NCBI RefSeq assembly: GCF_001426245.1
Contig: NZ_LMCM01000001.1
Location: forward strand, 186,001-250,000
Source: Phycicoccus sp. Root101
GTDB lineage: Bacteria > Actinomycetota > Actinomycetes > Actinomycetales > Dermatophilaceae
Direction: 5' to 3'
DNA length: 64,000 nucleotides
How positions within the stretch are numbered: the first letter of the stretch is position 1; each line of letters starts with the position of its first letter. Made by a program: the position numbers and the translations under genes. Below, in pieces: positions 1,471-62,032 of the stretch. The notes under the pieces were generated by a model that made no database searches, was not told where the DNA came from, and worked only from the letters and a program-made list of their open reading frames with translations.

Positions 1471-3011
1471 GCCTGGTCCCCCTGCGGGTCGGTCGGGTCC
1501 GTCCGGCCGGAGCCGGTCGCGCCGTCGCTGGCCCGGCGGGCCACCGCGGCGGCGAAGGCGTCGCCCCGTGCGCCGTAGTCGGTGAACATGTCCATCGACG
1601 CGGCTGCGGGTGCGAGGAGCACCACGTCACCGCTGCGGGCGAGCCCGGCGGCGTGCTCGACGACGACATCCATGGCACCAGTGTCCGTGCTCGACACGTC
1701 GACCACGGGGACATCCGGCGCGTGTCGGGTGAGCGCCTCGGCGAGGGTCGCGCGGTCCGCCCCGAGCAGGACGACGGCCCGCAGCCGGGGAGCCGCCTCG
1801 CGGACGAGCTCGTCGACGTCGGCGCCCTTGAGCAGGCCACCGGCGACCCACACCACGTGCTCGAACGACAGCAGCGACGCCAGCGCTGCGTGGGGGTTCG
1901 TGGCCTTGGAGTCGTCGACGTACCGCACGCCGTCGACCTCGCCGCAGTCGGCGATGCGGTGCGGCTCGGGACGGAAGGCCCGCAGGCCGTCACGGACCGC
2001 GGCGGGCGGGACGCCGTAGGCACGGGCCAGCGCCGCGGCGGCGAGCGCGTTCGCGAGGTTGTGCGGGGCCAGCGTCGCGGCACTGCCTCGGACGTCGTCG
2101 AGCGTGGCGAGCTCGGCGGCGGAGGTCTTGCGCTCCTCGACGAAGGCCCGGTCGGCGAGGATGTCGTCGACCACCCCGACCATCGAGAGGGCGGGCATCC
2201 CGAGGGTGAACCCGATCGCGCGGCACCCTTCCTGGACCTCGGCCTCCATGACGAGCCGCTCGGTGGCGGGGTCCTGGACGTTGTAGACGCAGGCGACCTT
2301 GGTGTTCGCGTAGACCTTGCCCTTGGCGGCGGCGTACTCCTCGAACGACCCGTGCCAGTCGACGTGGTCGGGCGCGACGTTGAGGCAGGCCGAGGCGTGC
2401 GGGGCGAGGGAGTCGGACCAGTGCAGCTGGTAGCTCGAGAGCTCGACCGCGATGACGTCGTAGGGCTCGGGGTGCAGGACCGCCTCGAGGATCGGGGTCC
2501 CGACGTTGCCGGCGGCGGTGGCGCGCAGGCCGGCCGCGCGCAGCATCTCGGCCAGCATGGTCACGGTGGTGGTCTTGCCGTTGGTTCCGGTGATCGTCAG
2601 CCAGGGCGCCGGACCGACGGCGGCGCGCATCCGCCAGGCCAGCTCGACCTCGCCCCACACCGGCACGCCGGCGGCCGCGGCCTCGACGAGCAGGGGCTGG
2701 TCCGGCCGCCAGCCCGGGGAGGTGACGACGAGGTCGGCGGCGTGGCCCTGCGGCATACCGGCCACGTGCTCGGGCCCGAGCCGGACGTCGACGCCGAGGA
2801 TGTCGAGGATGCGCGCCCGCTCCCCCAGCCGGGTGTTCGTCTCGGGGTCTCCCCCGTCGACGGCGACCACGTGCGCGCCCCGCTCGTGCAGGGCGTCCGC
2901 GGCGGCGAAGCCACTCACCCCGAGCCCGGTGACCACGACCCGCAGGCCGCTCCAGTCGGCGCTGCCGTTGGTCAACCCGTCGAGTCGTCCGCCGACCGGT
3001 GTGCTGCTCAC
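1467..3011 (-). CDS. murD: MurD, UDP-MurNAc-L-alanine:D-glutamate ligase
   Basis: 514 residues, slightly longer than the usual 450-490. Cytoplasmic ATP-dependent ligase adding D-glutamate to UDP-MurNAc-L-Ala. An N-terminal Rossmann part (GLGVSGFAAADAL, near residues 29-41) is followed by the Mur ligase P-loop TGTNGKTTT at 141-149, the central ATPase domain and a C-terminal domain with DDSKATNPHA. The start is a GTG. A 111 bp gap with a tandem repeat separates it from mraY upstream; downstream it overlaps ftsW by 4 bp. Confidence 0.95.
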   Translation of the reverse strand: MSSTPVGGRLDGLTNGSADWSGLRVVVTGLGVSGFAAADALHERGAHVVAVDGGDPETNTRLGERARILDILGVDVRLGPEHVAGMPQGHAADLVVTSPGWRPDQPLLVEAAAAGVPVWGEVELAWRMRAAVGPAPWLTITGTNGKTTTVTMLAEMLRAAGLRATAAGNVGTPILEAVLHPEPYDVIAVELSSYQLHWSDSLAPHASACLNVAPDHVDWHGSFEEYAAAKGKVYANTKVACVYNVQDPATERLVMEAEVQEGCRAIGFTLGMPALSMVGVVDDILADRAFVEERKTSAAELATLDDVRGSAATLAPHNLANALAAAALARAYGVPPAAVRDGLRAFRPEPHRIADCGEVDGVRYVDDSKATNPHAALASLLSFEHVVWVAGGLLKGADVDELVREAAPRLRAVVLLGADRATLAEALTRHAPDVPVVDVSSTDTGAMDVVVEHAAGLARSGDVVLLAPAAASMDMFTDYGARGDAFAAAVARRASDGATGSGRTDPTDPQGDQA

Positions 3012-3064
3012 TGCTGGTGCTTCCTCACTGCTGGTGCTGCTGTCTGGTGCTGCTGTCCGGTACC

Positions 3065-3122: not shown

Positions 3123-4205
3123 TCACTGCGCCCCGACGACCCACTCGGCGTAGAAGAGTCCGAGGCCCAGGGCCACGAACAGTCCCGCGATGATCCAGAA
3201 CCGGATGACGATGGTGACCTCGTTCCACCCGAGCAGCTCGAAGTGGTGCTGCAGCGGCGCCATCCGGAAGACGCGCTTGCCGGTCATCTTGAAGGACCCG
3301 ACCTGGATGATGACGGACAGCGTGATCGTGACGAACAGGCCGCCCAGGATGATGATGAGCAGCTCGGTGCGGGTCGTGATCGCGAGGCCGGCGAGCGCGC
3401 CACCGAGGGCCAGCGAACCGGTGTCCCCCATGAAGATCTTGGCGGGTGAGGCGTTCCACCACAGGAAGCCGAAGCAGGCGCCCATGCAGGCCGCGGCGAC
3501 GACCGCCAGGTCGCGGGAGTCGCGGACCTCGTAGCACTTGAGGCCGGGCGTGATCTGGCAGTTCTGGTTGCCCTGCCAGATGCCGATGAGGACGTATGCC
3601 GCGAACACCATCACCGACGCACCGGTGGCGAGTCCGTCGAGGCCGTCGGTGAGGTTCACCCCGTTGGACGTGCCGGCGATCATCAGGTTGGCCCAGATGA
3701 CGAACAGGATTAGCCCGACGAGGGTCCCCGCGAACGCGAGGTTGACGGGGGTGTCACGGACGAACGAGATGTACGTCGACGCCGGCGTCCGGTGCTTGCT
3801 GTTGGGGAACTGCAGGGCCAGGACGGCGAACACGACCGCCACGAGGGTCTGCCCGGCGAGCTTCTCGCGCGACCGCAGGCCGAGGCTGCGCTGCTTGGAG
3901 ATCTTGATGTAGTCGTCGAGGAACCCGACCAGCCCGAGCCCGGCCATGAGGAACAGCACCAGCACGCCGCTCCACGTCACCGGGGTGCCCGTGACGAGGT
4001 GCGCCAGCGCGTAGGCCGCGATCGCCGACCCGATGATCACCGCGCCACCCATGGTGGGCGTGCCGCGCTTGGTGTGGTGCGAGGTCGGGCCGTCGTCGCG
4101 GATGAACTGGCCGTAGCCCTGCTTGACCAGGTACTTGATGAACATCGGCGTGCCGAACAGGGCGCCCACGAGGGAGACGACGGCAGCGATCAGGACCGCC
4201 TTCAC
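3123..4205 (-). CDS. mraY: MraY, phospho-MurNAc-pentapeptide transferase
   Basis: 360 residues, the family's normal length. Integral membrane enzyme moving phospho-MurNAc-pentapeptide from UDP to undecaprenyl phosphate to make lipid I. It shows about ten hydrophobic segments and family motifs [17 protein letters not shown] near residues 44-60, [20 protein letters not shown] and [12 protein letters not shown] chose the GTG at 4205 (protein begins [14 protein letters not shown]) because it forms a GTGA overlap with the murF stop; the longer open frame upstream is murF in another frame. Confidence 0.95.
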
Positions 4206-5662
4206 GTCGCGTCCTCCTCGCTGGTCTGGGCACCCTGCGGGCCGGCCTCGGGGGCGCCGAGGGCAGCCACCTTGTCTCCGAGCCACCGTAGTCCGGCGTC
4301 ACGGCTCGACTTGAACAACACGACGTCACCGGGGCGACAATTCTCGACGAGCAGGTCGTACGCCGCGTCGGCGTCGGGCACCCAGACCGCCTCCTCGCCC
4401 CACGACCCCTCGTGCTGCGCGCCGCTGGCCATCGGCCGGGCGACGTCGCCGACGACGACGAGCCGGGAGATGTTGAGCCGCACGGCGAGCCGGCCGATGG
4501 CGTCGTGCTCGATGGTGGACTCCTCCCCCAGCTCGAGCATCGAGCCGAGCACGGCCCAGGTGCGACGCTCGCGGCCCTGCGCGTCCCGGCCCATCGCGGC
4601 GAGCGCCTTGAGGGCCGCGCGCATCGAGTCGGGGTTGGCGTTGTACGCGTCGTTGACCACCGTGACGCCGTCGGGTCGTTCGACGACCTCCATCCGCCAG
4701 CGCGAGGCCGGGGTGGCGGAGGCCAGTGCCTCGACGACCGACTCCAGCGGCAGTCCGCACTCGAGCGCGGCGGCGACGACGGCCAGGGCGTTGCCGACGT
4801 GGTGCTCGCCGTGCAACGGCAACGTCACCGGCGCCTCGCCGGCGGGCGTGAGCAGTCGGAAGGTGGGTCGACCGGAGGCGTCGAGCACGATGTCCTCGGC
4901 GCGGACGGTGGCGTCCGGGGCGGTCCCGACGAGCTGCACCCGGGCAGCGGTCCGGCCGGCCATCGCGCGGACGACCGCGTCGTCGGCGTTGAGCACCGCG
5001 AGCCCGTCGTCGGGCAGGGCGGCGACCAGCTCGGCCTTGGCCACGGCGATCGCCTCACGGGAGCCGAACTCCCCCACGTGGGCGGTGCCGACGTTGAGCT
5101 CGATCCCGATCCGGGGCGGGGCGATCGTCGTGAGGTACTCGATGTGCCCGATCCCCCGGGCGCCCATCTCCACGACGAGGTAGCGGGTCTGCGGCGTGAC
5201 GCGGAAGACCGTGAGCGGGACACCGACCTCGGAGTTGAGCGAACCCACCGGGGCGACGGTCGGCGCCACGGACGACAGGACGCTCGCCAGGAGGTCCTTG
5301 GTCGACGTCTTGCCGGACGACCCCGTGATGCCGATGACGGTGAGGTCGGGGTGGCGGTCGACGACGGCGCGGGCCAGGGAGGCCAACCCCGCCTGGATGT
5401 CGCCGACGACGACGCACGGGAGCTCGTCCACCTCGCGGGTGGTCATGGCGGCGACGGCGCCGAGCGCCGCTGTCGGGCCGACGAACTGGTGGCCGTCCAT
5501 CTGCTCGCCGACGCGGGCGATGTAGAGGCCACCGGCTCCCGCTTCCCGGGAGTCGGTGACGACGGGGCCGTCGACGACGAGGCGCGCCGCCTCGTCCTCC
5601 GGTATGCCGTGGAGCCGCCCACCGGTGATGGTGGCGATCTCCGCCAGGGACAACGGGATCAC
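4202..5662 (-). CDS. murF: MurF, UDP-MurNAc-tripeptide:D-Ala-D-Ala ligase
   Basis: 486 residues. It adds D-Ala-D-Ala to the UDP-MurNAc-tripeptide. The protein begins [15 protein letters not shown]. The substrate-binding N-domain contains [14 protein letters not shown] (34-47), and the P-loop [11 protein letters not shown] lies at 111-121, where MurF typically has [20 protein letters not shown] marks the C-terminal half. The GTG at 5662 overlaps the murE stop as GTGA, which fixes the start; the open frame extends far upstream but only as antiphase reading of murE. Downstream it overlaps mraY by 4 bp. Confidence 0.95.
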
Positions 5663-7251
5663 TGCGTACCTCTCGTGCCGGTGGCGACGGCGCGCAGGGC
5701 GCGGGCCACCTCTTCGCGGTCGTCGAACGGGTGGATGGTGCCGGCGACGTCCTGGCCGGTCTCGTGGCCCTTGCCCACGACGGCGACCACGCTGCCGGGC
5801 CCCCGGTCGTGCGCGGCCCGGACGGCCTGCTCGATGGCAGCGGCCCGTCCGTCGACGTCGTGCAGGTCGTCGGTGCCGCCGGCCGAGGCGGCCCCACGCG
5901 CGCCGGCGAGCACGGCGGCGCGGATCACCGCAGGGTCCTCGGAGCGCGGGTTGTCGTCCGTGACCACGACCACGTCGGCACCGAGGGCCGCTGCCCGCCC
6001 CATGGCGGCGCGCTTGCCGCGGTCGCGGTCGCCACCGGCGCCGAGGACGACGACGAGGGCACCGGAGGTCTGCGGCCGCAGGGCCTTGAGCGCCGCGGCG
6101 ACCGCGTCGGGGGTGTGGGCGTAGTCCACGACGACCAGCGGCAGCGACGGGTCGTCGGCGGCCCCGGCACCCCCCGTGCCCTCGGGCAGCGACACCTTCT
6201 CCATCCGGCCGGGCACGTGCGGGTCGCTGCGCAGGGCGCGCTCGACCTCCTCGGCCGCCAACCCCGAGTCGAGCAGGGCGAGGGCGGCCATCGCGGTGTT
6301 GACCCGGTTGAAGTCCCCCGGCAGGGCCGAGCGCAGCCGCAGGGTGGTGGTGCCGTCCGACAACGTGAAGTCCGCCGGGTCGTGCCCGGACGAGGTGTCG
6401 GCGGCCGTCACGAGGTGCCAGTCGGCGTCGACGTCCGGCAACGAGGTCATCGTCGTGACGGGCACGGTGGCGATCGTCGCGAGCTCGCGTCCCCACTCGT
6501 CGTCCACGCAGACGATCCCGCGCCGTGCCCGTTCCGGAGTGAACAGCGAGGCCTTGGCGAGGAAGTAGTCCCGCATCGTCGGGTGGAAGTCGAGGTGGTC
6601 CTGCGAGAGGTTGGTGAACAACGCCACGTCGTAGACGACGCCGTCGACCCGGTGCTGGGTCAGGGCGTGGCTCGACACCTCCATCACGCAGGAGTCGACC
6701 GACCGCTCCCGCATCACCGCCAGCAGGGCGTGCAGGACGGTGGCCTCGGGGGTCGTCCGCATGCTGCGCAGCCGCTCCTCACCGATGCGGGTCTCGACCG
6801 TGCCGATCAGGCCGGTGGTCTGGCCCAGGGCGGTGAGTGCGGAGTCCATCAGGTAGGCGGTGGTCGTCTTGCCGTTGGTGCCGGTCACGCCGTAGAGCCG
6901 CAACCCGAGGTCCGCCGTGCCGTAGAGCGTCCGGGCGACGGCGCCGACGACGCTGCGGGGTCCTTCGACGAGGACGGTCGGGACGTCCAGCCCGTCGGCC
7001 GCGAGCACCGCGACCCCCGCCGCGTCCGTCAGGACGGCGACGGCACCGGCCTCCAGCGCCCCGGCGGCATACCGGGCACCGTGGGCGTTGGCACCGGGGA
7101 GGGCGGCGTAGAGGTCGCCGGGCACGACGTCCTGGGAGGCGAGGGTGACCCCGGTCACGACGACATCCTCACCGCTGACGGTGCCCCCGACGAGGGCGGC
7201 CACGGCAGAGATCGGGGTGGCGTGCAGGGACGCCGGACGGGGGGAAGGCAC
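5659..7251 (-). CDS. murE: MurE, UDP-MurNAc-dipeptide:diaminopimelate ligase
   Basis: 530 residues. It adds the third stem-peptide residue. P-loop TGTNGKTTT at 123-131; the carbamoylated-lysine region and VVDYAHTPDAV follow. The substrate-specificity motif DNPR is present at residues 433-436, which in characterised MurE enzymes goes with diaminopimelate rather than lysine, so DAP-type peptidoglycan is inferred. GTG start, 17 bp after the ftsI stop; the stop overlaps the murF GTG. Confidence 0.95.
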   Translation of the reverse strand: MPSPRPASLHATPISAVAALVGGTVSGEDVVVTGVTLASQDVVPGDLYAALPGANAHGARYAAGALEAGAVAVLTDAAGVAVLAADGLDVPTVLVEGPRSVVGAVARTLYGTADLGLRLYGVTGTNGKTTTAYLMDSALTALGQTTGLIGTVETRIGEERLRSMRTTPEATVLHALLAVMRERSVDSCVMEVSSHALTQHRVDGVVYDVALFTNLSQDHLDFHPTMRDYFLAKASLFTPERARRGIVCVDDEWGRELATIATVPVTTMTSLPDVDADWHLVTAADTSSGHDPADFTLSDGTTTLRLRSALPGDFNRVNTAMAALALLDSGLAAEEVERALRSDPHVPGRMEKVSLPEGTGGAGAADDPSLPLVVVDYAHTPDAVAAALKALRPQTSGALVVVLGAGGDRDRGKRAAMGRAAALGADVVVVTDDNPRSEDPAVIRAAVLAGARGAASAGGTDDLHDVDGRAAAIEQAVRAAHDRGPGSVVAVVGKGHETGQDVAGTIHPFDDREEVARALRAVATGTRGTQ

Positions 7252-10072: not shown

Positions 10073-11058
10073 CGGTGGGTTCCCTTCGTTGCAGTGGAAA
10101 GTCGGGTGCGTTCGGCGGCCCGCAGGCGCACCGAGGCAGATCGGGGGTTGGCGGCCTGCTCGTCGGCGGGCGCCTCCTCGGCGCCACGCGTGAGCAGCCG
10201 CAGGTATGCCGCGTGCTCGGGGAGCTCGACGGGCAGGCCCTCCGGGCTGCTCCCCTTGGCTCCCTGCGCCAGCACGCGCTTGGTGATGCGGTCCTCGAGC
10301 GAGTGGTAGGACAGGACGGCGACCCGGCCGCCGACGCCGAGGGCGTCGATGACGCGCGGCAGCGCCCGGGTCCAGACGGACAGCTCGGCGTTGACCTCGA
10401 TGCGCAGCGCCTGGAAGGTCCGCTTGCCGGGGTGTCCCCCGCTCTTCTGGGAGGCGGCGGGCACGGCCTTCTTGAGGAGGTCGACGAGGCGGCCGGACGT
10501 GGTGAACGGCTCCGTCTCGCGCTCGCGCACGATGGCGCCGGCCACCTTCCTGGCGAACCGCTCCTCGCCGAACTCGCGCAGGATGCCCTCGAGGTCGGCC
10601 GCCGAGTAGGTGTTGAGCACCTCGGCCGCTGTGATCCCGGTGGACTGGTCCATCCGCATGTCGAGCGGCGCGTCCTGGCTGTAGGAGAACCCGCGGTCGG
10701 TCTCGTCGAGCTGCAACGAGGAGACACCGAGGTCGTAGAGGCTGGCGTCGACGTGGGTGACCCCGGCCTCGGCCAGCGCTCGCGGCACCTCGTCGTAGAC
10801 GGCGTGGACGAACGTGGTGCGGCCGGCGAAGCGGTCGAGGCGTTCCGCGGCGAGCGCGAGGGCCTCCCGGTCGCGGTCGATGCCGACGACGCGGGCCTGC
10901 GGGCAGGACTCGAGGATCGCCTCGGCGTGGCCGCCCATGCCGAGGGTGCCGTCGAGGTAGACGGCACCGGGCTCGGTGAGGGCGGGGGCGAGCAGCTCGA
11001 CGATGCGGTCGCGCAGGACGGGAATGTGCCGGTCGGCGGCCATTCCTCGTGAGTTCAT
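10069..11058 (-). CDS. rsmH: RsmH, 16S rRNA m4C1402 methyltransferase
   Basis: 329 residues. SAM-dependent N4-methyltransferase acting on C1402 of 16S rRNA (formerly MraW). The SAM-binding loop [16 protein letters not shown] is near residues 34-49, then [10 protein letters not shown]; family motifs [15 protein letters not shown] and [12 protein letters not shown] are present. I chose the ATG at 11058 because GGAG sits 8 nt upstream; an internal ATG at 11043 has its Shine-Dalgarno-like bases too close. The stop overlaps the ftsL start. Confidence 0.95.
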
Positions 11059-11724: not shown

Positions 11725-12118
11725 GGTGCACCCCTCCCCTCACTGCGACCACAGGACCCCACGGCCCTCTTGTTTCCCCCACTTTACTCCACCGTCACCC
11801 CCACAGGTACCCACTTCCGCACGTTTTCCTCATCCTTTCGGCTGTTTCTGCAGGTCAGACTGGTGGTGGAAAGTGGTGCGCCTTGACGGTCCCGGACCAC
11901 CTGATTGGCCCGTCGTCGCGGCTTTCGGCGACGAATGACCGGTGAGTGGAACCTCGGGGACGATCCGGGCACCGAAACGGGGGCCCGGGCGTTCCCGAAC
12001 CAGCCCCGTGAGGTCACGAGACGGCATACCTGCTGTCCCGGTGGGGCAATGTGGGGAAAGATCGAGACCATCCGCAGGGCGCAGCGTGGCGCCGACGGAA
12101 TCGACGGAAGGACAGCCG
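11725..12118. other. Divergent intergenic region between mraZ and the MoxR gene
   Basis: A 394 bp gap without a supported gene; the frames running through it are extensions of flanking genes without ribosome-binding sites. It is locally richer in A and T near 11760-11880, holds the MraZ-box repeats, one GTATGCC-type motif (12021-12029, read as GGCATAC) and, at its right end, the GGAAGGA ribosome-binding site of the MoxR gene. It must contain promoters for both directions. Confidence 0.7.
11777..11814 (-). promoter_or_regulatory. MraZ-box operator repeats
   Basis: Read on the minus strand, four hexamers occur: GTGGGT (11814-11809), GTGGGG (11804-11799), GTGGAG (11792-11787) and GTGGGG (11782-11777). 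Start-to-start spacings are 10, 12 and 10 bp. MraZ is known to bind short direct GTGG-type repeats at about one helical turn; the match and the position upstream of mraZ support the call. I could not identify -35/-10 boxes with confidence. Confidence 0.75.
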
Positions 12119-13231: not shown

Positions 13232-14491
13232 GTGCGCAGACTTCGCGACCTCCTCACCACCCGCGGGCGGGCGTTCGTCGCGGCGGGAATCACGTTGGTG
13301 CTGTGCGGGATCGGGCTCGGGTTCACCGACCTGACCCGGATCGGCGTGCTGCTCGTCGCGCTCCCCCTGCTGAGCGGGCTGCTCATGAGACGGCACGACC
13401 TGCGGTTCGCGCTCGAGCGCACCGCGGTGCCCGGACGCATCCAGGTCGACGAGCAGTCGGTGGTCACCCTCGGCATCGAGAACGCCGGTGGCGCCGCGAG
13501 CCCGTTGCTCATGGCCGAGGAACAGCTCGACTACGCCCTCGGTGACCGACCGCGGTTCGTCGTCCCGCGCCTTCGTCGTGGTGACCGGCAGGAGATCCAC
13601 TACACGGTGCGCTCCCACGTCCGGGGACGTCACCGCCTGGGTCCGCTCGGCGTCCGCCTCCGCGACCCGTTCGGGCTCAGCACCCGGGTCGCAGCGATCT
13701 CCGGTGCCAGTGACGTGCTCGTGCTGCCCCGCATCCTCCCCCTGGGCGGCGGGCTCCCGCCGGGCAGCGGTGTCGGTGCCGAGGGCGCCATACCCCACAT
13801 GGTCGCCCTCCACGGCGAGGACGACGTCTCGATCCGCTCCTACCGTGACGGCGACGACCTGCGCCGCATCCACTGGCCGGCCACGGCCAAGACCGGTGAG
13901 CTCATGGTGCGCCAGGAGGACCGTCCGGCGCGCCGTCGTGCGGCGATCGTCCTCGACTCGCGCTCCCGCGGCCACCACGGGTCCGGCAGCTCGGGGTCGT
14001 TCGAGTACGCCGTGACCGCGTGCGCCTCGATCGCGGTCCACCTCCTCGACCAGGGGTATGCCGTGCACCTCGTCAGCGACGAGACCGCCGACGACAGCCG
14101 CGCCGCCACGGCGATGGAGGTCGACCCGCTGCTGGACGTCCTGGCCATGGCCGAGCCCGGCTCGGAGGACCAGTTCGCCGACGTGCTCCAGTCCGCCCAC
14201 CCCGTCACCGCGTCCGGTGGCCTGGTCCTGGCCGTCGTGACCGACCTCGACGAGGAGGTGGCCCGCCAGGTCGCCTCGCTGCGCCAGCCGGGCGGCACCG
14301 CGCTGGCCATCGTGCTCGACCCGCACGGGTTCGGGGCGTCGCGACGCCGACCCGGCGCTGCTTCCGAGCTCGCCTGCGTCCCGGTCCTGCGGGGCGCCGG
14401 GTGGGGGGTGGCGGTCGTGGGTTCCGGTGACGACCTCGCCTCCGTCTGGGGTGTCCTGTCCGGTGGGTCGGCGAGGGTGGGCGTCGCATGA
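13232..14491 (+). CDS. DUF58-domain membrane protein
   Basis: 419 residues. Two hydrophobic segments lie near the N-terminus (AFVAAGITLVLCGIGLGF and IGVLLVALPLLSGLL), then a beta-rich region and the DUF58 signature IRSYRDGDDLRRIHW near residues 200-214, followed by a VWA-like fold (AIVLDSRSRG). GTG start 9 bp after the MoxR gene; ATGA overlap with the next. MoxR, DUF58 and transglutaminase proteins are commonly co-encoded and thought to form one membrane-linked module; the exact function is not known. Confidence 0.88.
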   Translation: MRRLRDLLTTRGRAFVAAGITLVLCGIGLGFTDLTRIGVLLVALPLLSGLLMRRHDLRFALERTAVPGRIQVDEQSVVTLGIENAGGAASPLLMAEEQLDYALGDRPRFVVPRLRRGDRQEIHYTVRSHVRGRHRLGPLGVRLRDPFGLSTRVAAISGASDVLVLPRILPLGGGLPPGSGVGAEGAIPHMVALHGEDDVSIRSYRDGDDLRRIHWPATAKTGELMVRQEDRPARRRAAIVLDSRSRGHHGSGSSGSFEYAVTACASIAVHLLDQGYAVHLVSDETADDSRAATAMEVDPLLDVLAMAEPGSEDQFADVLQSAHPVTASGGLVLAVVTDLDEEVARQVASLRQPGGTALAIVLDPHGFGASRRRPGAASELACVPVLRGAGWGVAVVGSGDDLASVWGVLSGGSARVGVA

Positions 14492-16887
14492 GCCGCGGAC
14501 GCGTTCCCGAGTCCCTGCTCGCCGGGGCGGCCTCCGCCGTCGTCGCCTGGCCGATCACGACGCTCTTCACCCCCAACACGTGGGTCCGGCCCACGCTCGC
14601 CGTGATCCTGGTGGTCGTGCTGACGGGCATCGCCGCCCGGATGCTCACGACGTCGTGGGTCCTCGTCGCACTCTCCCAGCTCGCCGGCATCGTCCTGGTC
14701 GCCAGCTGGCTCCACGGCCGCGGGCACCTCTGGTACGGCCTGCCCACGCCCGACATGGTCCTGGCGTTCAACAACCTGCTCGTGGACGCCCGGCTCACGG
14801 TGCAGAACTACGCAGCCCCCGCGCCCACCAACCGCGGCGTCACCCTCGGCATCGGCCTGGCCATCGGTGTGGCTGCCGTCATCGTCGACCACCTCGCCGT
14901 CATGCGGCGCTCCCCGGCGATGGCCGGCCTCCCCCTGCTCACCGCCTTCCTCATCTCGGCCTCCAACTCCGGCGAGTCGCTCAACCCGATGTACTTCGTC
15001 GCCGCCGGAGGCGTCTGGCTGCTGATGCTCGGTCGCCAGGGCATCTCCTCGTTGCGCCGGTGGAGCACCACGACCCCGATGAGCACGACCGGCCGCCGCT
15101 CCTCCGAGGACCACGACGGCGCCTACGGGTATGCCGCGGTGGGACGCACGCTGGCCGTGGCCGGCCTCGTCACCGCGGTCGCGCTCCCCGTCGTGATCCC
15201 CCACTTCCCCACGCGCTACCTCATCGACGGCCTGGGGCGGTCGAGCGACGCCGCCGGGTTCAGCGACGGCCAGATCGGCCTCAAGACGACCCTCGACCTC
15301 CAGCGCAGCCTCGGGAACCCGTCCAAGGCCCCGGTCCTGTCGTACACGACCAACGCCCCGATCCTCACGCCGCTGCGCGTCGGGGTGCTGGTCAACTACG
15401 CCAACGACGAGTGGCGACCCGACGACGCGGACGTGCGCTACACGCGCCGCCCCGACCTGCAGCTCCCGCCCGAGCTCGACGACAGCGTCCCGCGCGAGAC
15501 CTACCGGATCTCGGTCGACGAGTCCCGCATCGAGGCACCCCAGATCGCGGCACCCACCCCGCTGGTCTCCGGTGACCTCGACGGCGTCGCGTGGGGCCTG
15601 GACCGCCAGACCTCCGTCGCGAGCGTCAACCGGACGGCCAGCTCGTACAGCTTCACCTACCTGGCCCTCAACCCCAGCGCGCAGACCCTCGACCAGGGCG
15701 CGCAGGGTGCGACCGGCGCGTTGCTGCCGCCCGAGCTGCAGGTCGACCCCGAGTCCGAGCCACTGGTGCGCGACCTCGTGGCCAAGGTCGTGCCCGAGGG
15801 CGCCAGCAGGATCGAGGCGGCCCGGGCGATCCAGAGCTACCTGCGGACCGGGGGCGGCTTCACCTACTCCCTCACCCTCCCCAAGACCGTGACCAACGAG
15901 TTCGGACAGTCCGAGGCGCCCGACCCGATCTCGTTGTTCCTGCGCAGCAAGGTCGGCTACTGCGTGCAGTTCGCCACCGCGATGGTGATGATGGCGCGCG
16001 AGAGCGGGATCCCTGCCCGCATGGCCATCGGCTTCCTGCCCGGGACGGCCGACCGCGGCACGTACACCGTGCGCGCCTCGGACGCGCACGCGTGGCCCGA
16101 GCTGTTCTTCGAGGGGGTCGGGTGGCTGCGCTTCGAACCCACGCCCTCGGGTACGCAGAACACCGTCGCACCGCCCTACTCGCTGGCTCCCACCACCCCC
16201 GACCCCACCAACCCCTCGTCGACGGCGAGCGGCAGCAGCTCGGTGTCGTCCAACACCCGGGTCGACGGCGCCAACGACCCCGGCGCCCAGGACCCGACGT
16301 CCACCTCGGGGTCCAACAGCGACAGCTCGTCGTTCCTCGGACAGCAGACCCGGACGGTGCTGCTGTGGGTGCTCCTCGCCCTGGTGGCCGGGATCCTCGG
16401 ATCGCTGGCCGTGCCGCTGGCCGCACGCTCGCGGCTGCGCCGACGGCTCAAGGACGCCCCCGACGAGGCAACCCGGGTGGAGATCGAGTGGCAGGCCATG
16501 GTCGAACGCCTCGGCGACCTCGGCGTCATCCCCCCTCGGGGGAGCACCCCGCGGCAGGCCGGTCGGTTCTACCAGCGCGAGGCCTACCTCGAGGGTGAGC
16601 AGACCCAGGCGCTGCGCCGGGTCGTGGACGGCGTGGAACGGTCCCGGTACGCACCCCCGGGCACGACGGTGACCAACGTGCGGCCCGACACCCACGAGGT
16701 CGTCAAGGCCGTCTCCGGGGTGCGCCGCCGCAAGGACCGGCTGCGGGCCGCGTGGTGGCCGAGCGAGGGCCTGCTCGAGTGGCGCGAGCGTCGCGAACGC
16801 GCCGCCCGGGTGGCGCGCACGCCGTGGGACCGCTGGCAGGAACGCCGCGCCGAGCGCCGGGCCGAAGCCCGGGGCGGCCGCAGCTAG
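14488..16887 (+). CDS. TgpA-type membrane transglutaminase-like protein
   Basis: 799 residues. Six or so N-terminal membrane helices (to about residue 245) precede an extracytoplasmic transglutaminase-like domain with catalytic candidates Cys492 in GYCVQFATAMVMMAR and His534 in SDAHAWPELF, and WLRFEPTPSG after it. A Ser/Asn/Thr-rich linker (about 570-615), one more helix (TVLLWVLLALVAGILGSLAVPL) and a charged cytoplasmic tail follow. The ATG overlaps the DUF58 stop. Its closeness to the dcw cluster suggests, but does not prove, a cell-envelope role. Confidence 0.9.
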   Translation: MSRGRVPESLLAGAASAVVAWPITTLFTPNTWVRPTLAVILVVVLTGIAARMLTTSWVLVALSQLAGIVLVASWLHGRGHLWYGLPTPDMVLAFNNLLVDARLTVQNYAAPAPTNRGVTLGIGLAIGVAAVIVDHLAVMRRSPAMAGLPLLTAFLISASNSGESLNPMYFVAAGGVWLLMLGRQGISSLRRWSTTTPMSTTGRRSSEDHDGAYGYAAVGRTLAVAGLVTAVALPVVIPHFPTRYLIDGLGRSSDAAGFSDGQIGLKTTLDLQRSLGNPSKAPVLSYTTNAPILTPLRVGVLVNYANDEWRPDDADVRYTRRPDLQLPPELDDSVPRETYRISVDESRIEAPQIAAPTPLVSGDLDGVAWGLDRQTSVASVNRTASSYSFTYLALNPSAQTLDQGAQGATGALLPPELQVDPESEPLVRDLVAKVVPEGASRIEAARAIQSYLRTGGGFTYSLTLPKTVTNEFGQSEAPDPISLFLRSKVGYCVQFATAMVMMARESGIPARMAIGFLPGTADRGTYTVRASDAHAWPELFFEGVGWLRFEPTPSGTQNTVAPPYSLAPTTPDPTNPSSTASGSSSVSSNTRVDGANDPGAQDPTSTSGSNSDSSSFLGQQTRTVLLWVLLALVAGILGSLAVPLAARSRLRRRLKDAPDEATRVEIEWQAMVERLGDLGVIPPRGSTPRQAGRFYQREAYLEGEQTQALRRVVDGVERSRYAPPGTTVTNVRPDTHEVVKAVSGVRRRKDRLRAAWWPSEGLLEWRERRERAARVARTPWDRWQERRAERRAEARGGRS

Positions 16888-21415: not shown

Positions 21416-21465
21416 GAGGGTGCTCCTGTGGCCATCGCGCTTGCCGCCCAGGACAGGGCCGGCCG

Positions 21466-30114: not shown

Positions 30115-30180
30115 CGCGCCATACCTCCGCGGTCTCCGACTGCTGCCGGGCACCGCGGGTCAGGAACCCCCCGCACAGAG

Positions 30181-39471: not shown

Positions 39472-39478
39472 GTGGAGA

Positions 39479-39512
39479 GGGTATGCCGCGTCGTCACCGA
39501 CGCGGCATACCC
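39479..39512 (-). terminator. Hairpin built from two GTATGCCGC motifs, after lldP
   Basis: Perfect 14-bp arms gggtatgccgcgtc (39479-39492) and gacgcggcataccc (39499-39512) with loop gtcacc. It lies 65 bp beyond the lldP stop and 8 bp before the metY riboswitch on the same strand, so it probably separates the two transcripts. Each arm contains one copy of the window-wide GTATGCCGC motif. Confidence 0.7.
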
Positions 39513-41328: not shown

Positions 41329-41383
41329 GGGTCACCTCGTTGTGAGACGTGTCCTCGCGGACACGGGAGTGGGGCGGGTCGCG

Positions 41384-45485: not shown

Positions 45486-45536
45486 GGGGGGATGCCTCAC
45501 GATTCCACATGGCGGAAACTGGCTTCTGCACCATGG

Positions 45537-45566
45537 ACCCTATTTGCGGCATACAGGACAGGTCAA
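45537..45566 (-). promoter_or_regulatory. Promoter of the glcDEF-lldP operon
   Basis: On the minus strand -35 TTGACC (45566-45561) and -10 TAGGGT (45542-45537) are 18 bp apart, giving a leader of about 45 nt. The -35 box contains the stop codon of the upstream gene. The spacer carries a full GTATGCCGC motif (45546-45554). Confidence 0.6.
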
Positions 45567-48239: not shown

Positions 48240-48597
48240 GGAGGTTCCAGATCTGTTGGAGGCGGGCGGTCATCACCGCGACGGCGAACGCCGCGACGGC
48301 GACGACCCCCATCGACCAGCGGGTCTTCTCCTTGAGCGCCAGGAACACCGCCACCGGGGGAAGGAACGGCAGCGTGATCGCGTATGCCGCGAACGTCGCC
48401 GTCTCCGCGTCGTCCCCGGGGACGCTGCCGAGGTGCGCGAGCGCGACGGCGGCCTGGACGAGCACCCCCAGCTCCACCACCGCCGCCACGAGGAGAAGGC
48501 GGTCGTCGACGAGGCGGGTGCGGGCGGCATACCAGCCGGCGATCGCGAGCAGGGCCACCGCACCGGCGAGGACGACCACGGTCAGGGGGAAGAGCAC
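48232..48597 (-). CDS. Small membrane protein
   Basis: 121 residues, GTG start. Four hydrophobic segments are seen (TVVVLAGAVALLAIAGWY, LLVAAVVELGVLVQAAVAL, TFAAYAITLPFLPPVAVFLAL, MGVVAVAAFAVAVMTARL). It has a C-terminal RLQQIWNLHG. Probably co-transcribed with the next membrane gene, which it overlaps. Not recognised beyond being an integral membrane protein. Confidence 0.8.
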   Translation of the reverse strand: MLFPLTVVVLAGAVALLAIAGWYAARTRLVDDRLLLVAAVVELGVLVQAAVALAHLGSVPGDDAETATFAAYAITLPFLPPVAVFLALKEKTRWSMGVVAVAAFAVAVMTARLQQIWNLHG

Positions 48598-50971: not shown

Positions 50972-53248
50972 TCAACCGGCCGGCTGCAGGACCGGCGGTT
51001 CAGCCGGCTCCGAGGGCCCGGAGGTCCCTGAGGTCCCGGAGGTCCCGGTCGCGTCGGTAGCCGCCGCGCGGGTCTCCTCGCGGTGCCCGTGGCGCTCCCA
51101 CCACCGCGCCAGCGGGGCGGGGGCCCACCAGTTGGCGCGGCCGAGCAGCCGCATGGTGGCCGGGACGAGCAGGGCGCGCACGACCGTGGCGTCGATGAGC
51201 ACCGCCACGAGCATGCCGACCCCGATCATCTTGAGGAACACGATCCCGCTGGTGGCGAACCCCCCGATGACGACCGCGAGCAGCAGCGCCGCACTGGTGA
51301 TGATGCGCCCCGAGCGCTGCACCCCGGCTGCGACGGCCCGCGTGTTGTCGCCGGTGCGGTCCCACTCCTCCCGGATCCGGCTGAGCAGGAACACCTCGTA
51401 GTCCATCGACAACCCGAACAGGATCGCCAGCATGAGGATGGGCTGGGTGACGTCGAGGTACCCCGGGGAGGTGAAGCCGAGCAGCCCGGCGAGGTGCCCC
51501 TCCTGGAAGATCCAAGTCACCACACCGAAGCTGGCGCCGATCGACACCGCGTTCATGACGATCGCCTTGAGGGGCAGCACGACCGACCCGAAGGCCACGA
51601 ACAGCAGCACGAGCATGACCACCGCCACCGTGAGGGCCATCCACGGGAGCCGGGCCCCGATGGAGTCGACGAGGTCGACCGCGTCGGCGGTGGCTCCTCC
51701 GACGAGCACCGTGCTGCCCGCCGGTGCCGCGACGGCGCGCAGCTCTCGGACCAGGTCCTGGCTGGCCGCCGACTGGCCGTTGCCCGGCCAGGTCACCCGC
51801 AGCAAGGTCCTGGCCTGCCCCTCGTAGGTCGTCCGCCCCGTCGGCTGCACGGCGGTGACGCCGTCGACGCGACCCAGCTGTGCGGCATACGCGGAGACGG
51901 CGGTGGGGTCACCACCGGTGACGACGAGGGACGCCGACGAGGTCTCGCCGCCGAAGAGGTCGGCCTGCAGCTCGGCCGCCTGGCGGCTGGGCGAGCTGGC
52001 CGGCAGCACCCGCTCGTCGACACTGCCCCAGCGCGCCTGGGTGAACGGACTCCCCAGGGCCAGCAGCCCCACCACGATGACGACGAGGAAGACGACGGGG
52101 CGACGCATGACGCTGTGGGCGACTCGTGCCCAGGCGCCGTGGACGACCTCGCGGTCGGTGCCGTGGACCTCCTGCAGCGCCTGCGCGTCGGCCCGGTGCG
52201 CCCGGGTGCCGCGCCGCCACGGCATCCGGCCCAGCTCGATGCGCGGGCCGAGGACTCCGAGCAGCGCCGGCAGGATGGTCAGGGCAGCTGCCATCGCGAC
52301 GAGCACCGCGGCGACCCCGCCGTAGCCCATGGAGCGCAGGAAGTTCTGCGGGAAGATGAGCAGCGAGGCGAGGGACGCGGCGACGATGAGGCCGGAGAAC
52401 AGCACCGTCCGCCCGGCCGTCGCCATGGTGCGGCTGATCGCCGTCGCCACGCTGGCACGGCTCTCGTCGGGCTGGGTGGCGAGCTCCTCGCGGAACCGGC
52501 TGACGACGAACAGCGCGTAGTCGATCGCCAGGCCCATCCCGAGCAGGGTGATGACGTTGATGGAGAAGACCGAGACGTCGGTGATGCCGGTGACCAGGCG
52601 CACGACGGCGAACGCCCCCATCACGGCGATGCCGCCGACCAGGGTGGGCATCAGGGCCGAGGCCAGGCTTCCGAAGATCAGCAGGCTGAGGACGAAGACG
52701 ATCGGCATGGAGATCGACTCGGCGCGCGCGATGTCGTGCGAGACCTGCTCGTTGACGTCACCGAAGACGGCCCACTTCCCGCCGACGCTGGTTGCCAGGC
52801 CGGGGGCCCGGAGGTCGTCCTTGACCGCCTCCCAGTTGTCGCTCTTGGCGTCCTGGGTCGCCCCGGCAAGGGTGACGACCACCCGGGTGGCGTGCCGGTC
52901 ACCGCTCACCAGGTCGGGGGCCCTGGTCGACCACCACGTCGTGGTCGCGGCCACGTCGGACCGCGGGAGGGCGCCGAGCGTGCGGGTCACGGCCTGCTCG
53001 AACGCCGGGTCCTGCACCGTGAGGGTCGGGCTCGAGTAGACGACGACCAAGTCGGTGTCCCGCCCCGGGAAGGCGGCCTGCTCGAGGACCAGCTCCTTCG
53101 CGGAGTCGGTCGCCGGGTCGTCGAACCCCCCGTTCGCGAGGTGGCCGAACACCCCGATGCCGTATGCCGCCGCGGCCAGCACGACGACGATCCCCGCCAC
53201 GAGGACGGCCCACGACCGTCGGGCGACGAATGCTCCCCAGGACTCCAT
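50972..53248 (-). CDS. MmpL-family RND exporter
   Basis: 758 residues from the ATG at 53248, with AAGGAG 9 nt upstream (a GTG three codons earlier overlaps that site). Two halves, each with a large extracytoplasmic loop and a group of membrane helices. First half: SMPIVFVLSLLIFGSLASALMP and INVITLLGMGLAIDYALFVVSRFREEL (GLAIDYALF, with proton-relay Asp/Tyr). Second half: GLSMDYEVFLLSRIREEWD. This DY motif pair is typical of MmpL lipid/drug transporters. The C-terminal tail has short GTS repeats. Divergent from a TetR gene that probably regulates it. Confidence 0.92.
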   Translation of the reverse strand: MESWGAFVARRSWAVLVAGIVVVLAAAAYGIGVFGHLANGGFDDPATDSAKELVLEQAAFPGRDTDLVVVYSSPTLTVQDPAFEQAVTRTLGALPRSDVAATTTWWSTRAPDLVSGDRHATRVVVTLAGATQDAKSDNWEAVKDDLRAPGLATSVGGKWAVFGDVNEQVSHDIARAESISMPIVFVLSLLIFGSLASALMPTLVGGIAVMGAFAVVRLVTGITDVSVFSINVITLLGMGLAIDYALFVVSRFREELATQPDESRASVATAISRTMATAGRTVLFSGLIVAASLASLLIFPQNFLRSMGYGGVAAVLVAMAAALTILPALLGVLGPRIELGRMPWRRGTRAHRADAQALQEVHGTDREVVHGAWARVAHSVMRRPVVFLVVIVVGLLALGSPFTQARWGSVDERVLPASSPSRQAAELQADLFGGETSSASLVVTGGDPTAVSAYAAQLGRVDGVTAVQPTGRTTYEGQARTLLRVTWPGNGQSAASQDLVRELRAVAAPAGSTVLVGGATADAVDLVDSIGARLPWMALTVAVVMLVLLFVAFGSVVLPLKAIVMNAVSIGASFGVVTWIFQEGHLAGLLGFTSPGYLDVTQPILMLAILFGLSMDYEVFLLSRIREEWDRTGDNTRAVAAGVQRSGRIITSAALLLAVVIGGFATSGIVFLKMIGVGMLVAVLIDATVVRALLVPATMRLLGRANWWAPAPLARWWERHGHREETRAAATDATGTSGTSGTSGPSEPAEPPVLQPAG

Positions 53249-56989: not shown

Positions 56990-57418
56990 TCAGGACGCCT
57001 CGCGCAGCGGCGGCGGGAGGGCGGCCACGCCGTACGGGGACGCGAGGTGGAAGCCGAGGAGGCGGACGCCATACCGGGCGCAGGCGTCGATCGTGGCCTG
57101 GTGCCACGCGCGGTCGAGGTCGCTGGGCAGCAGCCCGCGCCGGCGCCCCCGCCCGACGAGGATCGCCCCGCCCGCCTCCCCCACCATGGGCAGGAGGAGG
57201 TCGAGCAGGCGGACCAGGTCCGCCACCGAGGCGTCCTCGGGGAGGTCGCTGAGCACGAGGGGCTGCAGGCCGCGGTCGTCCTCGTCGCACACCATCAGGG
57301 CGACCGCACCGCTGCGGCGCTCCTCGATGCCGAGGACGAGGTCGATCACGTCGCCCTGGAGGCCGGCTTCATGCAGCGGCCGGGTGCGGATGTCGTCGGG
57401 CAGGTCGTGGTAGCTCAT
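56990..57418 (-). CDS. Hypothetical protein, 142 residues
   Basis: Starts at ATG 57418 (MSYHDLPDDIRTRPLHEAG); a longer frame upstream lacks support. Soluble alpha/beta sequence with VIDLVLGIEERRSGAVALMVCDEDDRGLQPLVLSDLP and RAWHQATIDACARYGVRLLGFHLAS. I do not recognise the family. The AILVGRGRRRGLLPSDLDRAWHQA segment resembles actinobacterial proteins of unknown function near division or repair genes, but this is weak. Confidence 0.65.
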   Translation of the reverse strand: MSYHDLPDDIRTRPLHEAGLQGDVIDLVLGIEERRSGAVALMVCDEDDRGLQPLVLSDLPEDASVADLVRLLDLLLPMVGEAGGAILVGRGRRRGLLPSDLDRAWHQATIDACARYGVRLLGFHLASPYGVAALPPPLREAS

Positions 57419-59538: not shown

Positions 59539-61814
59539 GATGCCTCCCCCGTAGGGGGCACCTGGTGGGCGTCGTCCGGCGCGAGCTCGGCCACGCCGCT
59601 CGCACCGGTGTACACGCAGGCCAGGGCGTCCGCCATGGTGGTGATGCTGAACCGGTCGCGCAGGGTCGTCAGGGCCCGGCGCTGCTGCAGGGCGGCCTCC
59701 GGGGACGCGGCCAGCTCCAGGGCGCGGCCGATCGCCGCGGCGAGCGCGGCGGGTGACCCGGTGTCGGTCAGGAACCCTGTGACGCCGTCCTCGACGTAGG
59801 TCGCTGGGCCGCCCCCGTCGGGGGCGACCACGACGAGGGAGGCCGCCATCGCCTCGAGGATGGCCAGACCGAACTCCTCCTTGAGGCTCGCCGACACGTA
59901 CACCCCTGCGGGGGCCGCCAGCGAGCCCCGTCCGTGCCGGGTCGCCGCGAGCCATGCAGCCACGGTGGCATGGGGGCGGTGGCCAGGCAGGAGCAGGCCG
60001 TGCCGCACAGCTGCGGCACGCGGGACGACGGCCTCGATCCGGGCCAGCTCCGCGGCCTCCTCCGCCGAGGGGTCGTCGAGGTCCCCTCCGACGACCAGCA
60101 GGTTGCTGCGGGCCCTGAGGGCAGGGTCGGCGTGCCACGTCTCGACGAGCGTGGCCATGCCCTTGACGCGGTTGAGCCGGCCGACCGTGACGAGCAGGGG
60201 CAGCCCGCGTCGGGCGGCAGGGAGCTGCACGAGCAACGCATCCAGCTCCGCGAGCGCCGCCCCGGTGGGGCCACCGCCGGCGTCACCTCCCGTGGTGACG
60301 ATGGAGCCGCCCGTGGGGCCGGTGGGGCCGGCCGTGGGGCCGGGGCGGGTGGGCGTGGCACCCCGCTTGAGTGCCGCACCGGCATGCTCCACAGCCCTGA
60401 AGTCGATGCCCTCGGGCACGACCGTGGCCCGGTGCGCCTCGACGTCCAGGTCGAGTCCGAGCAGGGCACGGCTGTCGCGGCGGAGCTCGGGTCGGGGGAA
60501 CAGCACGAGCTGCGCAGCCGCCCGCGCGAGGCCACGGACGAGGTGGTCGCGGAAGGCGAGGTGCTCGGTGGCGTCAGCGGCGCCGAACGACGCCCGCGTC
60601 AGCTCACCGGAGGCCTCCCGGGACGCCAGCAGGGCATGCGGGTCGGGGGCCACGGTGAAGACCACCGGTATGCCGAGCTCGTTCGCCGCCTCGGCCGCAG
60701 CCAGGGACCCGACGTCGGCCATCCGCAGGTGGATCACGTCGACCCGACCCGCCGCGAGCAGCAGCTGACGGACCCCGCGACGCACGGCGACCCGGTGCAT
60801 CCACGCCTGCCCCATCCCGACCGGCGGGCCCCACAACGGCACCTGGACATAGTGGTGCCCCGGTGCGGCGAGGTCGGACGGCACGAGGTCGCCGTCCGGG
60901 CGCCCCCGCGAGATGGTCAGGACGCGTTCGACGCTGTCGGACTCGAGCAGGGCGTTGCCGAGGTGGACGAGCAGGGTGGCGATGCCTCCGGTGTCGCCCT
61001 TGCCGGCGCTGCTGAGCTCACCGTCGATGTCGGCGTGCAGGAACAGCTGGGCCACCGTCAACCCGGTCACGGTCGAGGGCACGGACGGGTGCGATCCGGT
61101 GCGGAGCGCGTGAGCGGAGCCGTGGGTACGCGGCTCGGTCCCCCGCCTCGGGCGGGCCGTGAACCGGTCGGCCAGCGCGGCGGTCGCCGCTGCCCGCGTC
61201 GACGCGGACTCGCTCTCGTCGTCCACCACACCGAGCAGCACCGACCGCGCAGCCTCACCGGGGACCAGGTCGACGGTCTCGACGAGCCAGGTGCGAGCCC
61301 GGTCGTCGAGCGGCGGGACGGTCGGGTCGGGCTCCAGCGGGGCGCGGTCGAGGGCGGACACGAGGGAGACCAGGACGAGCCCGGGCGACGCTGCGGCCCA
61401 CACCTCCAGGGTCCGCTGGGCCAGCATGCCGGTGACGCCACCCGCGGACACGAGGTCGACCAGCGAGGGCACGGCGGCCGGCACCGGGGCAGCACGGCGC
61501 AGCGCCCAGGCGGCGTGCTCGACGCGGAACGGGTCGCCCGACCCCAGCATCCGCACCAGGTGTGCCCCGTCGGCCACCGGGAGGGCAGCGAGCGCGTGCA
61601 CGGCAGCGAGCGCGACGACGGCGTCGCCGGCGTCGTCGGCCGCCCTCCGGAGCTCCTGCCGGGACGAACCCGCGTGGTCGTCGGCGGACGCCGTGGCCAC
61701 GTCGGCCGCCAGCCGCAGGCCTTCCAGGATGGTCGGTGCAGAGCGCACCGCGTCGAGGGCCTCGCGGACCGCTCGTGCCGGGTGCGTCGAGGGAACCGCG
61801 CTGCCACTCACCAC
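59535..61814 (-). CDS. GT4-family glycosyltransferase with N-terminal HEAT-like domain
   Basis: 759 residues, GTG start (a second GTG follows directly). Residues ~30-230 form Ala/Leu-rich paired helices like HEAT or armadillo repeats (AVHALAALPVADGAHLVRML, AAWALRRAAPVPAAVPSLVDLV). From about 250 a GT4 catalytic region begins, with FLHADIDGELSSAGKGDTGGIATLLVHLGNAL, LLVTVGRLNRVKGMATLVETW, and SASLKEEFGLAILEAMAASLVVVAPDGGGPATYVEDG, the nucleotide-sugar EX7E motif. A repeated GPTGPT stretch interrupts it near residue 490. Fusion of scaffold and catalytic parts is unusual. Overlaps the next gene. Confidence 0.85.
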   Translation of the reverse strand: MVSGSAVPSTHPARAVREALDAVRSAPTILEGLRLAADVATASADDHAGSSRQELRRAADDAGDAVVALAAVHALAALPVADGAHLVRMLGSGDPFRVEHAAWALRRAAPVPAAVPSLVDLVSAGGVTGMLAQRTLEVWAAASPGLVLVSLVSALDRAPLEPDPTVPPLDDRARTWLVETVDLVPGEAARSVLLGVVDDESESASTRAAATAALADRFTARPRRGTEPRTHGSAHALRTGSHPSVPSTVTGLTVAQLFLHADIDGELSSAGKGDTGGIATLLVHLGNALLESDSVERVLTISRGRPDGDLVPSDLAAPGHHYVQVPLWGPPVGMGQAWMHRVAVRRGVRQLLLAAGRVDVIHLRMADVGSLAAAEAANELGIPVVFTVAPDPHALLASREASGELTRASFGAADATEHLAFRDHLVRGLARAAAQLVLFPRPELRRDSRALLGLDLDVEAHRATVVPEGIDFRAVEHAGAALKRGATPTRPGPTAGPTGPTGGSIVTTGGDAGGGPTGAALAELDALLVQLPAARRGLPLLVTVGRLNRVKGMATLVETWHADPALRARSNLLVVGGDLDDPSAEEAAELARIEAVVPRAAAVRHGLLLPGHRPHATVAAWLAATRHGRGSLAAPAGVYVSASLKEEFGLAILEAMAASLVVVAPDGGGPATYVEDGVTGFLTDTGSPAALAAAIGRALELAASPEAALQQRRALTTLRDRFSITTMADALACVYTGASGVAELAPDDAHQVPPTGEAS

Positions 61815-62032
61815 TCGACCCTAGGTCGGACCCCGGGGGGTCGCACCCGGAGCAGCGGACCCAGCGGAACCTGACCCGCGGCATACGCGCCACGCCGGGC
61901 GAGGCACCGGACACGCCGGTCACGGGTCGTCCGAATGGCTCATCTTTTTGTTCTAGTCCCTGTCGCACGGAGCCGCGGTGCCACTCTTCACTGTCGTCAC
62001 ACCCGCCCCTGCTGACCCCCCGGACTTCCCTG
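61815..62032. other. Divergent intergenic region
   Basis: 218 bp between the GT4 gene (minus) and the amidase gene (plus). It holds one GTATGCCGC motif (61879-61887, minus orientation) and a locally AT-rich stretch (catctttttgttctag near 61940-61956) that may belong to the amidase promoter. No gene seen. Confidence 0.5.

Follow-up and report, generated by a model that had tools for sequence, protein, structure and literature searches.

Motif copies in the window

We studied a 64-kb stretch of the Phycicoccus sp. Root101 genome (C1:186001-250000; the whole genome comprises 4.38 Mb in 12 contigs), further referred to as the window. It contains numerous copies of a short non-palindromic DNA motif, which is the subject of this study. 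The motif core is GTATGNCG; in the source genome it mostly takes the form GTATGCCG followed by C or T. The heptamer GTATGCC occurs 29 times on the two strands of the window, with 28 of these copies extending to GTATGCCG and 20 copies of the 9-mer GTATGCCGC. A second form, GTATGGCG, is present in five copies. The sites are as follows (coordinates, strand, description).

2751..2758, minus, GTATGCCG in GTATGCCGC
3594..3601, plus, GTATGCCG in GTATGCCGC
5602..5609, plus, GTATGCCG
7065..7072, minus, GTATGCCG in GTATGCCGC
10204..10211, plus, GTATGCCG in GTATGCCGC
12022..12029, minus, GTATGCCG, intergenic
13786..13793, minus, second form GTATGGCG
14056..14063, plus, GTATGCCG
15129..15136, plus, GTATGCCG in GTATGCCGC
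22398..22404, minus, GTATGCC with C as the next base, a bare 7-mer that does not match the 8-base core
23000..23007, minus, GTATGCCG in GTATGCCGC
24790..24797, minus, GTATGCCG in GTATGCCGC
25360..25367, plus, GTATGCCG
28098..28105, minus, GTATGCCG in GTATGCCGC
28843..28850, plus, GTATGCCG in GTATGCCGC, retained in 6/6 congeners compared
30117..30124, minus, second form GTATGGCG, intergenic
32563..32570, plus, GTATGCCG in GTATGCCGC
33777..33784, plus, GTATGCCG
33893..33900, minus, GTATGCCG
39481..39488, plus, GTATGCCG, hairpin arm
39503..39510, minus, GTATGCCG, opposite hairpin arm
41704..41711, plus, second form GTATGGCG
41908..41915, minus, GTATGCCG in GTATGCCGC
43942..43949, minus, second form GTATGGCG
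45547..45554, minus, GTATGCCG in GTATGCCGC, intergenic
46618..46625, minus, GTATGCCG
47497..47504, plus, GTATGCCG in GTATGCCGC
48382..48389, plus, GTATGCCG in GTATGCCGC
48525..48532, minus, GTATGCCG in GTATGCCGC
51883..51890, minus, GTATGCCG in GTATGCCGC
53162..53169, plus, GTATGCCG in GTATGCCGC
57067..57074, minus, second form GTATGGCG
60668..60675, plus, GTATGCCG
61879..61886, minus, GTATGCCG in GTATGCCGC

In dinucleotide shuffles of the window the mean count was 1.66 for GTATGCC and 0.23 for GTATGCCGC, and none of 100 shuffles reached the observed count of either word. Among words with at least six occurrences in the window, GTATGCC has the largest excess of all 7-mers and GTATGCCG of all 8-mers. 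The original prediction for this DNA reported at least 29 copies of GTATGCC and 20 of GTATGCCGC, less than one 9-mer expected per 64 kb, and roughly equal orientations. All 29 and all 20 copies are present, and GTATGCC is found 14 times on the plus and 15 times on the minus strand. Its 20 listed coordinates are right with the exception of 61879, where the site actually occupies 61878-61886. A genome-wide count, which it had named as a check, demonstrates that the excess persists beyond the window: the source genome contains 903 copies of GTATGCCGC on both strands (440 and 463) versus 21 copies of the reversed word (12 and 9). For GTATGCCG the respective numbers are 727 and 741 versus 36 and 46.

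According to simple gene calls, 27 of the 33 GTATGSCG sites in the window are located within genes, in several reading frames and both orientations, as had been stated from the letters alone; the copies between genes predicted there are also observed (sites at 12022, 30117 and 45547). Gene edges and the regions outside genes contain the motif at 1.2 to 2.6 times the density of a uniform spread, based on rough gene calls. The rare tyrosine codon TAT was likewise expected to occur within the motif, and 14 of the 19 TAT codons in the window do fall in it, as do 47 of 82 in 200 kb elsewhere.

Positions 27001-47000 of the window were aligned to six congeners, and 8-mers of similar composition served as controls. 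GTATGSCG is retained at 33 of 53 covered sites, and control 8-mers are identical in 2,129 of 5,894 cases (36%); the rule accepts either C or G at position 6, which gives the motif a slight advantage over the controls. The retained fractions are 10/13 in G007, 6/13 in G010, 6/8 in G008, 4/5 in G003, 5/7 in G006 and 2/7 in G009. Hence the proposed comparison of orthologous sites came out in favor of conservation.

The predicted use of the motif as both arms of a hairpin was confirmed for the pair 39481/39503. The hairpin (39478-39513, minus strand) has a 15-bp stem, a 4-base loop and a folding energy of −33.5 kcal/mol. It is located 3' of a gene with the L-lactate permease domain (PF02652; 39577-41328, minus strand) and 5' of a SAM-IV riboswitch; a role as a terminator is plausible, although the stem is not followed by a T run. 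Neighboring copies less than 60 bases apart are inverted with the motif outermost in 5 of 6 cases in the genus of the window (further referred to as g1) and in 14 of 35 cases in other genera. Strong long-stem folds were obtained for six inverted pairs from five genomes.

Dialects and distribution in the family

In 297 kb of the source genome including the window, GTATGCCG occurs 97 times versus 3.6 expected, and GTATGGCG, 41 times versus 3.4 expected. Counts of the remaining single-base variants are close to the expectation or lower, the largest excesses being those of GTATGtCG (9 versus 2.2 expected) and GTATGCgG (8 versus 2.8 expected). Across the six genomes sampled, the excess of GTATGCCG ranges from 27 to 120 times.

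The motif forms dialects by genus: GTATG-N-CG is constant, and position 6 and the flanks vary. G014 has the dialect GTATGNCG with a relaxed position 6 (28 A, 71 C, 27 G and 19 T in 80 kb), and the dialects of G013, G078 and G066 are relaxed at this position to much the same degree. The dialect of G017 is CGTATGCCG, with 101 copies of GTATGCCG in 69 kb, that is, one per 683 bases. The dialect of G025 is GTATGCCGCTG (13/13 sites), and G194 and G088 share the dialect CGTATGCCGT. These assignments are provisional, as several samples contain just 7-15 sites.

The distribution of the motif in the family Dermatophilaceae is bimodal. Among 186 genomes from 53 genera, 108 (31 genera) contain at least 100 copies of GTATGCCG per Mb (further referred to as rich genomes; the maximum is 1,356), 62 (22 genera) contain less than 30 per Mb, and 16 are intermediate. 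Three genera are mixed. In g26, G127 has 19 copies versus 3,681 in G128 and 1,062 in G035; in g68, G151 has 50 copies and the other 30 genomes have at least 394; in g50, G065 has 37 copies and the other four have at least 1,251. In 20-40 kb samples of seven poor genomes no substitute motif was evident, although such sampling is weak for sparse motifs.

Outside the family, none of 318 genomes from 19 families reaches 100 copies of GTATGCCG per Mb. The three highest counts are 180, 177 and 167, with the corresponding reversed-word controls at 195, 135 and 184. At low density, a few large genomes have about three times their own control (e.g. G299, 131 versus 45). Seven copies of GTATGNCG were found in 16 kb of Ornithinimicrobium sp. 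CNJ-824 (L108), the sole apparent family member among the matches listed. The 12 best matches of its LeuS after itself come from family genomes, with some family members scoring below other families; we take Ornithinimicrobium to belong to Dermatophilaceae in GTDB.

Mapped on the ComEC tree (34 genomes), the division into rich and poor requires five changes, at least four of them across supported branches. Therefore both an old signal with subsequent losses and several independent gains are possible.

Spacing, orientation and alternative explanations

Neighboring copies tend to alternate in orientation. Orientation labels were shuffled 2000 times per set, and the number of neighbors in the same orientation was compared with the shuffled mean. 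In the source genome 42 of 122 neighbors have the same orientation (mean 57.6; 1/2000 shuffles as low). The numbers are 24 of 94 in other g1 genomes (44.0; 0/2000), 53 of 141 in G014 (68.9; 15/2000), 16 of 55 in G031 (26.3; 5/2000), and 95 of 256 in nineteen 20-kb stretches from nineteen other rich genomes (124.2; 0/2000).

The alternation is accompanied by strand-specific spacing. In g1, pairs closer than 500 bases comprise 7 same-orientation pairs versus 37.0 expected and 38 opposite-orientation pairs versus 37.0 expected. Same-orientation pairs regain the expectation by 1.5-2.5 kb; their avoidance below approximately 1 kb is a new observation of this analysis. Outside g1 the effect is weaker, with same-orientation pairs at 0.49-0.82 of expectation over distances of 100-1000 bases. 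G014 and G017, where the motif is dense, also have somewhat fewer opposite-orientation pairs than expected below 250 bases (0.84 and 0.76). In the source genome GTATGCCG forms 6 same-orientation pairs at 60-1000 bases versus 15.6 expected; of 234 control 8-mers that occur 90-190 times there, one is as depleted in such pairs, and eight have as low a share of same-orientation neighbors. It follows from the exclusion of same-orientation copies without exclusion of opposite-orientation ones that the motif is under a force that senses the strand over about 1 kb. Hence mutational bias, methylation and orientation-blind binding rank below a directional or single-strand process.

At larger scale, strand bias was absent from the 27 regions sampled that contain five or more sites each (X2 = 12.2). 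The 108 rich genomes contain 101,176 forward and 101,512 reverse copies of GTATGCCG, and the imbalance per genome is below the binomial one (standard deviation of z 0.78), which is the evenness expected from alternation of orientation. In total, the signal is real, genome-wide, family-specific and under strand-aware selection. The claim of selection or targeting at the DNA level is thus supported, given the genome-wide excess, the varied frames, the conservation at orthologous sites and the strand-specific spacing.

Single-base variants bear on a mutational origin. They were counted in 16 rich genomes with position 6 fixed or nearly so (804 kb; genomes with relaxed dialects were excluded) and in 14 poor ones (593 kb). 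GTATGCCG itself occurs 493 times versus 8.5 expected in the former and 7 times versus 8.4 in the latter. Variants outside position 6 number 472 versus 471.8 expected in rich and 467 versus 394.7 in poor samples; position-6 variants are enriched. Depletion of near-misses as a trace of conversion was considered and rejected, given that similar deficits are seen in motif-poor genomes. The clearest difference between rich and poor samples concerns GTACGCCG, which in the commonest frame is one synonymous step from the motif: 53 copies (50.0 expected) versus 147 (55.9 expected). GTAaGCCG differs too (0 versus 8), with small numbers. Therefore some of the motif copies appear to be derived from GTACGCCG. 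The excess of GTACGCCG in poor genomes, 2.6 times the trinucleotide expectation, perhaps reflects codon-pair usage; there the word has no spacing effect (23 same-orientation and 28 opposite-orientation pairs, 28.3 expected each).

A mutational bias, e.g. deamination of methylated C in GTACGCCG, would agree with this scarcity of the source word in rich samples. However, source and product taken together are about 2.6 times more frequent per kb in rich samples than in poor ones, a mutation process is blind to a copy on the same strand at a distance of 500 bases, and three rich genomes (G017, G064 and G193) have no match to PF00145. We consider this explanation extremely unlikely.

The same three genomes bear on the proposal that the motif is a target of a methyltransferase, restriction, BREX or phosphorothioate system and is maintained for its epigenetic or protective value. 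Methyltransferases were searched for in 65 genomes (46 of the 108 rich ones, each with a completeness of at least 96%, plus 19 further genomes). PF01555 was unmatched in 29 and PF00145 in 19 of the 46 rich genomes, and both were unmatched in 14; among these 14, PF02384 was unmatched in three and PF07669 in six. G017, G064 and G193 match none of these four families, other families such as PF02086 being outside the search. A short sharp recognition word and the patchy distribution would suit a modification target, but these three genomes and the strand-specific spacing, for which methylation gives no reason, make it very unlikely.

Binding of the motif by a nucleoid protein, a condensin loader or a regulator would be consistent with conserved sites spread over the genome. 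On the other hand, orientation-blind binding cannot exclude same-orientation neighbors alone, and the majority of copies are genic; a polar translocating motor may still be involved, although regional strand bias was absent. This role is quite unlikely in our opinion.

Chi acts strand-specifically, and the motif could resemble it: an octamer with polarity that a helicase-nuclease of the RecBCD, AddAB or AdnAB type would recognize in single-stranded DNA, switching from degradation to recombination. Both are over-represented non-palindromic octamers, and strand-specific action is inferred for the motif as well. However, in 400 kb of E. coli K-12 the 100 Chi sites constitute 3.1 times the expectation, are biased by strand between regions (X2 26.4, 8 regions) and cluster in the same orientation (17 pairs below 500 bases versus 8.1 expected). 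The motif has a far larger excess, no bias between replichore strands, and exclusion in place of clustering. A Chi-like function is therefore unlikely.

Comparison with uptake sequences and the competence machinery

Of the mechanisms named in the original prediction, the uptake signal fits best. The methylation target and the nucleoid-protein site leave the strand-specific exclusion unexplained, and the segregation signal does not agree with the absence of strand bias in the 27 regions. The motif probably has the role that DNA uptake sequences play in Neisseriaceae and Pasteurellaceae, that of a self-recognition signal for natural transformation. We do not claim that it belongs to this class, as its orientation behavior may differ.

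Classical features of uptake sequences were taken from sections of PMC3630211, PMC1939737, PMC7811141, PMC2397512 and PMC2346458. Like them, the motif is an over-represented non-palindromic word of about 8-12 bases, is present in both orientations without replication-strand bias, has dialects that share a core across the family (with several samples being small), and occurs in genomes encoding competence machinery, equally so in the motif-poor ones. The DNA uptake sequences (DUS) of Neisseriaceae are also short non-palindromic words with hundreds to thousands of copies and some hairpin pairs, limited to a family, with dialects around a fixed core and some members lacking the word, as described in parts of PMC3630211 and PMC2397512; the common core of dialects within a family is given in the former. 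The motif differs from DUS in its occurrence in high-GC Gram-positive bacteria, its unrelated sequence and the same-strand exclusion. The uptake signal sequences (USS) of Pasteurellaceae are similar to it in the peak genomic density of roughly one per kb, the presence of some inverted pairs, lack of orientation bias and excess outside genes (passages of PMC1939737 and PMC7811141); about 10% of USS form inverted repeats, and mismatched forms are over-represented in proportion to similarity (PMC1939737, in part). The sequence of USS is unrelated. HIP1 of cyanobacteria is another high-density octamer with unsettled function, but it is palindromic and tied to orphan methyltransferases (sections of PMC4390886). 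The motif is not a palindrome, and the search of four methyltransferase families revealed no similar association.

Motif-bearing DNA would be preferentially taken up or recombined, leading to accumulation of the motif, and copies would spread through uptake-biased recombination. The recognizer would belong to the uptake route consisting of the Flp pilus, ComEA and ComEC, and its action would be polar or confined to a single strand, which would require a separate copy on each strand approximately every kilobase. In the actinobacterium Micrococcus luteus transformation requires Flp pili and two tad clusters (PMC4322843, in part). More tentatively, and with somewhat more doubt than conviction, we propose a strand-specific or polar transformation signal of Gram-positive Actinobacteria, with evenly spaced tags on each strand and reception by the Flp pilus and ComEA-ComEC without type IV pili.

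ComEC was matched in 57 of 58 relatives, including all 36 family genomes considered. In 13 of 20 loci (simple gene calls) its neighbor belongs to one sequence cluster; the four neighbor proteins checked (from rich G000 and G001 and poor G033 and G034) all contain HHH_3 and SLBB domains as in ComEA, and two of three checked passed the ComEA-repeat cut-off of TIGR00426 (NCBIfam). The Flp pilin domain DUF4244 was matched in 172 of the 186 family genomes. TadE and TadF are present in 20 of 20 Tad loci of rich and poor genomes; these loci were selected by the DUF4244 match, which makes the presence of Flp, in contrast to that of TadE and TadF, a matter of construction. The type IV pilus marker PilM_2 had no match in 34 of 36 family genomes and was matched in two; therefore reception of the ComP type is unlikely. 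In the rich genome G005 (C1:1517076-1517881) ComEC is split between two neighboring partial matches whose open frames differ; either the gene is broken or the sequence contains an error.

Several observations weigh against an uptake signal of this kind. The com and tad genes are equally present in motif-poor genomes, and none of the ComEC, ComEA-like, Flp-pilin and Tad genes examined divides rich genomes from poor ones. Hence presence or absence of competence genes was rejected as the cause of patchiness. The 14 genomes with no DUF4244 match include rich ones, e.g. G063, listed as 100% complete. Uptake by H. influenzae is reported to be independent of motif orientation (PMC1939737, in part), a trait that does not define DUS or USS; the neighbors of the motif are strand-specific, and the genomic pair test yields no such independence. 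Strand-specific exclusion was not found as a property of uptake sequences in the portions of published work consulted. Alternation in G017 is not significant alone (41 of 99 neighbors in the same orientation, mean 48.5, 153/2000 shuffles). When both strands are combined, spacing clearly exceeds random evenness in one of the six genomes, G014 (5/2000 simulations); as a general claim this was rejected given 111 to 1074 of 2000 simulations for the other five. In five of six sets the evenness holds within each strand. Finally, some small contigs of the source genome bear GTATGCCG. A general exclusion from small contigs was rejected given 16 copies in C2, 4 in C3 and 9 in the whole of C12, with zero copies in 20 kb of C4 and in the first 20 kb of C12.

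Uptake sequences have been described in two Gram-negative families (parts of PMC1939737 and PMC7811141). If the motif functions as proposed, it would constitute a third, independently evolved system with polarity visible in the genome, and self-specific bacterial sex would have arisen again in high-GC Gram-positive bacteria with a different pilus. Genera with patchy occurrence (G127 versus G128 and G035) would provide natural gain/loss pairs for finding the receptor, and the same-strand exclusion, a handle on how the signal acts after binding. We found no prior report of the motif in the accessible portions of open-licence literature, which is weak evidence of absence, and the term "uptake sequence" occurs zero times in the available parts of three M. 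luteus papers (PMC4322843, PMC8467076, PMC12849477).

Several other elements were observed. Two IMG/VR contigs, L261 (3297-3320) and L262 (6216-6239), are two records of one element and contain the same perfect 24-base palindrome of two motif copies, with no further motif copy in 5 and 14 kb stretches of L261 and L262, respectively; this is too little sequence, and these viral contigs were not used as evidence. The window contains two SAM-IV riboswitches at gathering score, 39358-39470 and 21432-21542 (both on the minus strand). The former is located 5' of a gene with the Cys/Met-metabolism pyridoxal-phosphate enzyme domain (37925-39244, minus strand). A selenocysteine tRNA called by ARAGORN at 46010-46106 (minus strand) is possibly false; it lies within a predicted gene (45563-46831, minus strand) whose product has no Pfam match at 1e-10. 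The intergenic stretch 37753-37850 contains a perfect 44-base palindrome (37802-37845; two 22-base arms without a spacer; fold z −7.0). Similar stretches are present at several places in the congeners G007 and G010. The element resembles a dispersed palindromic repeat.

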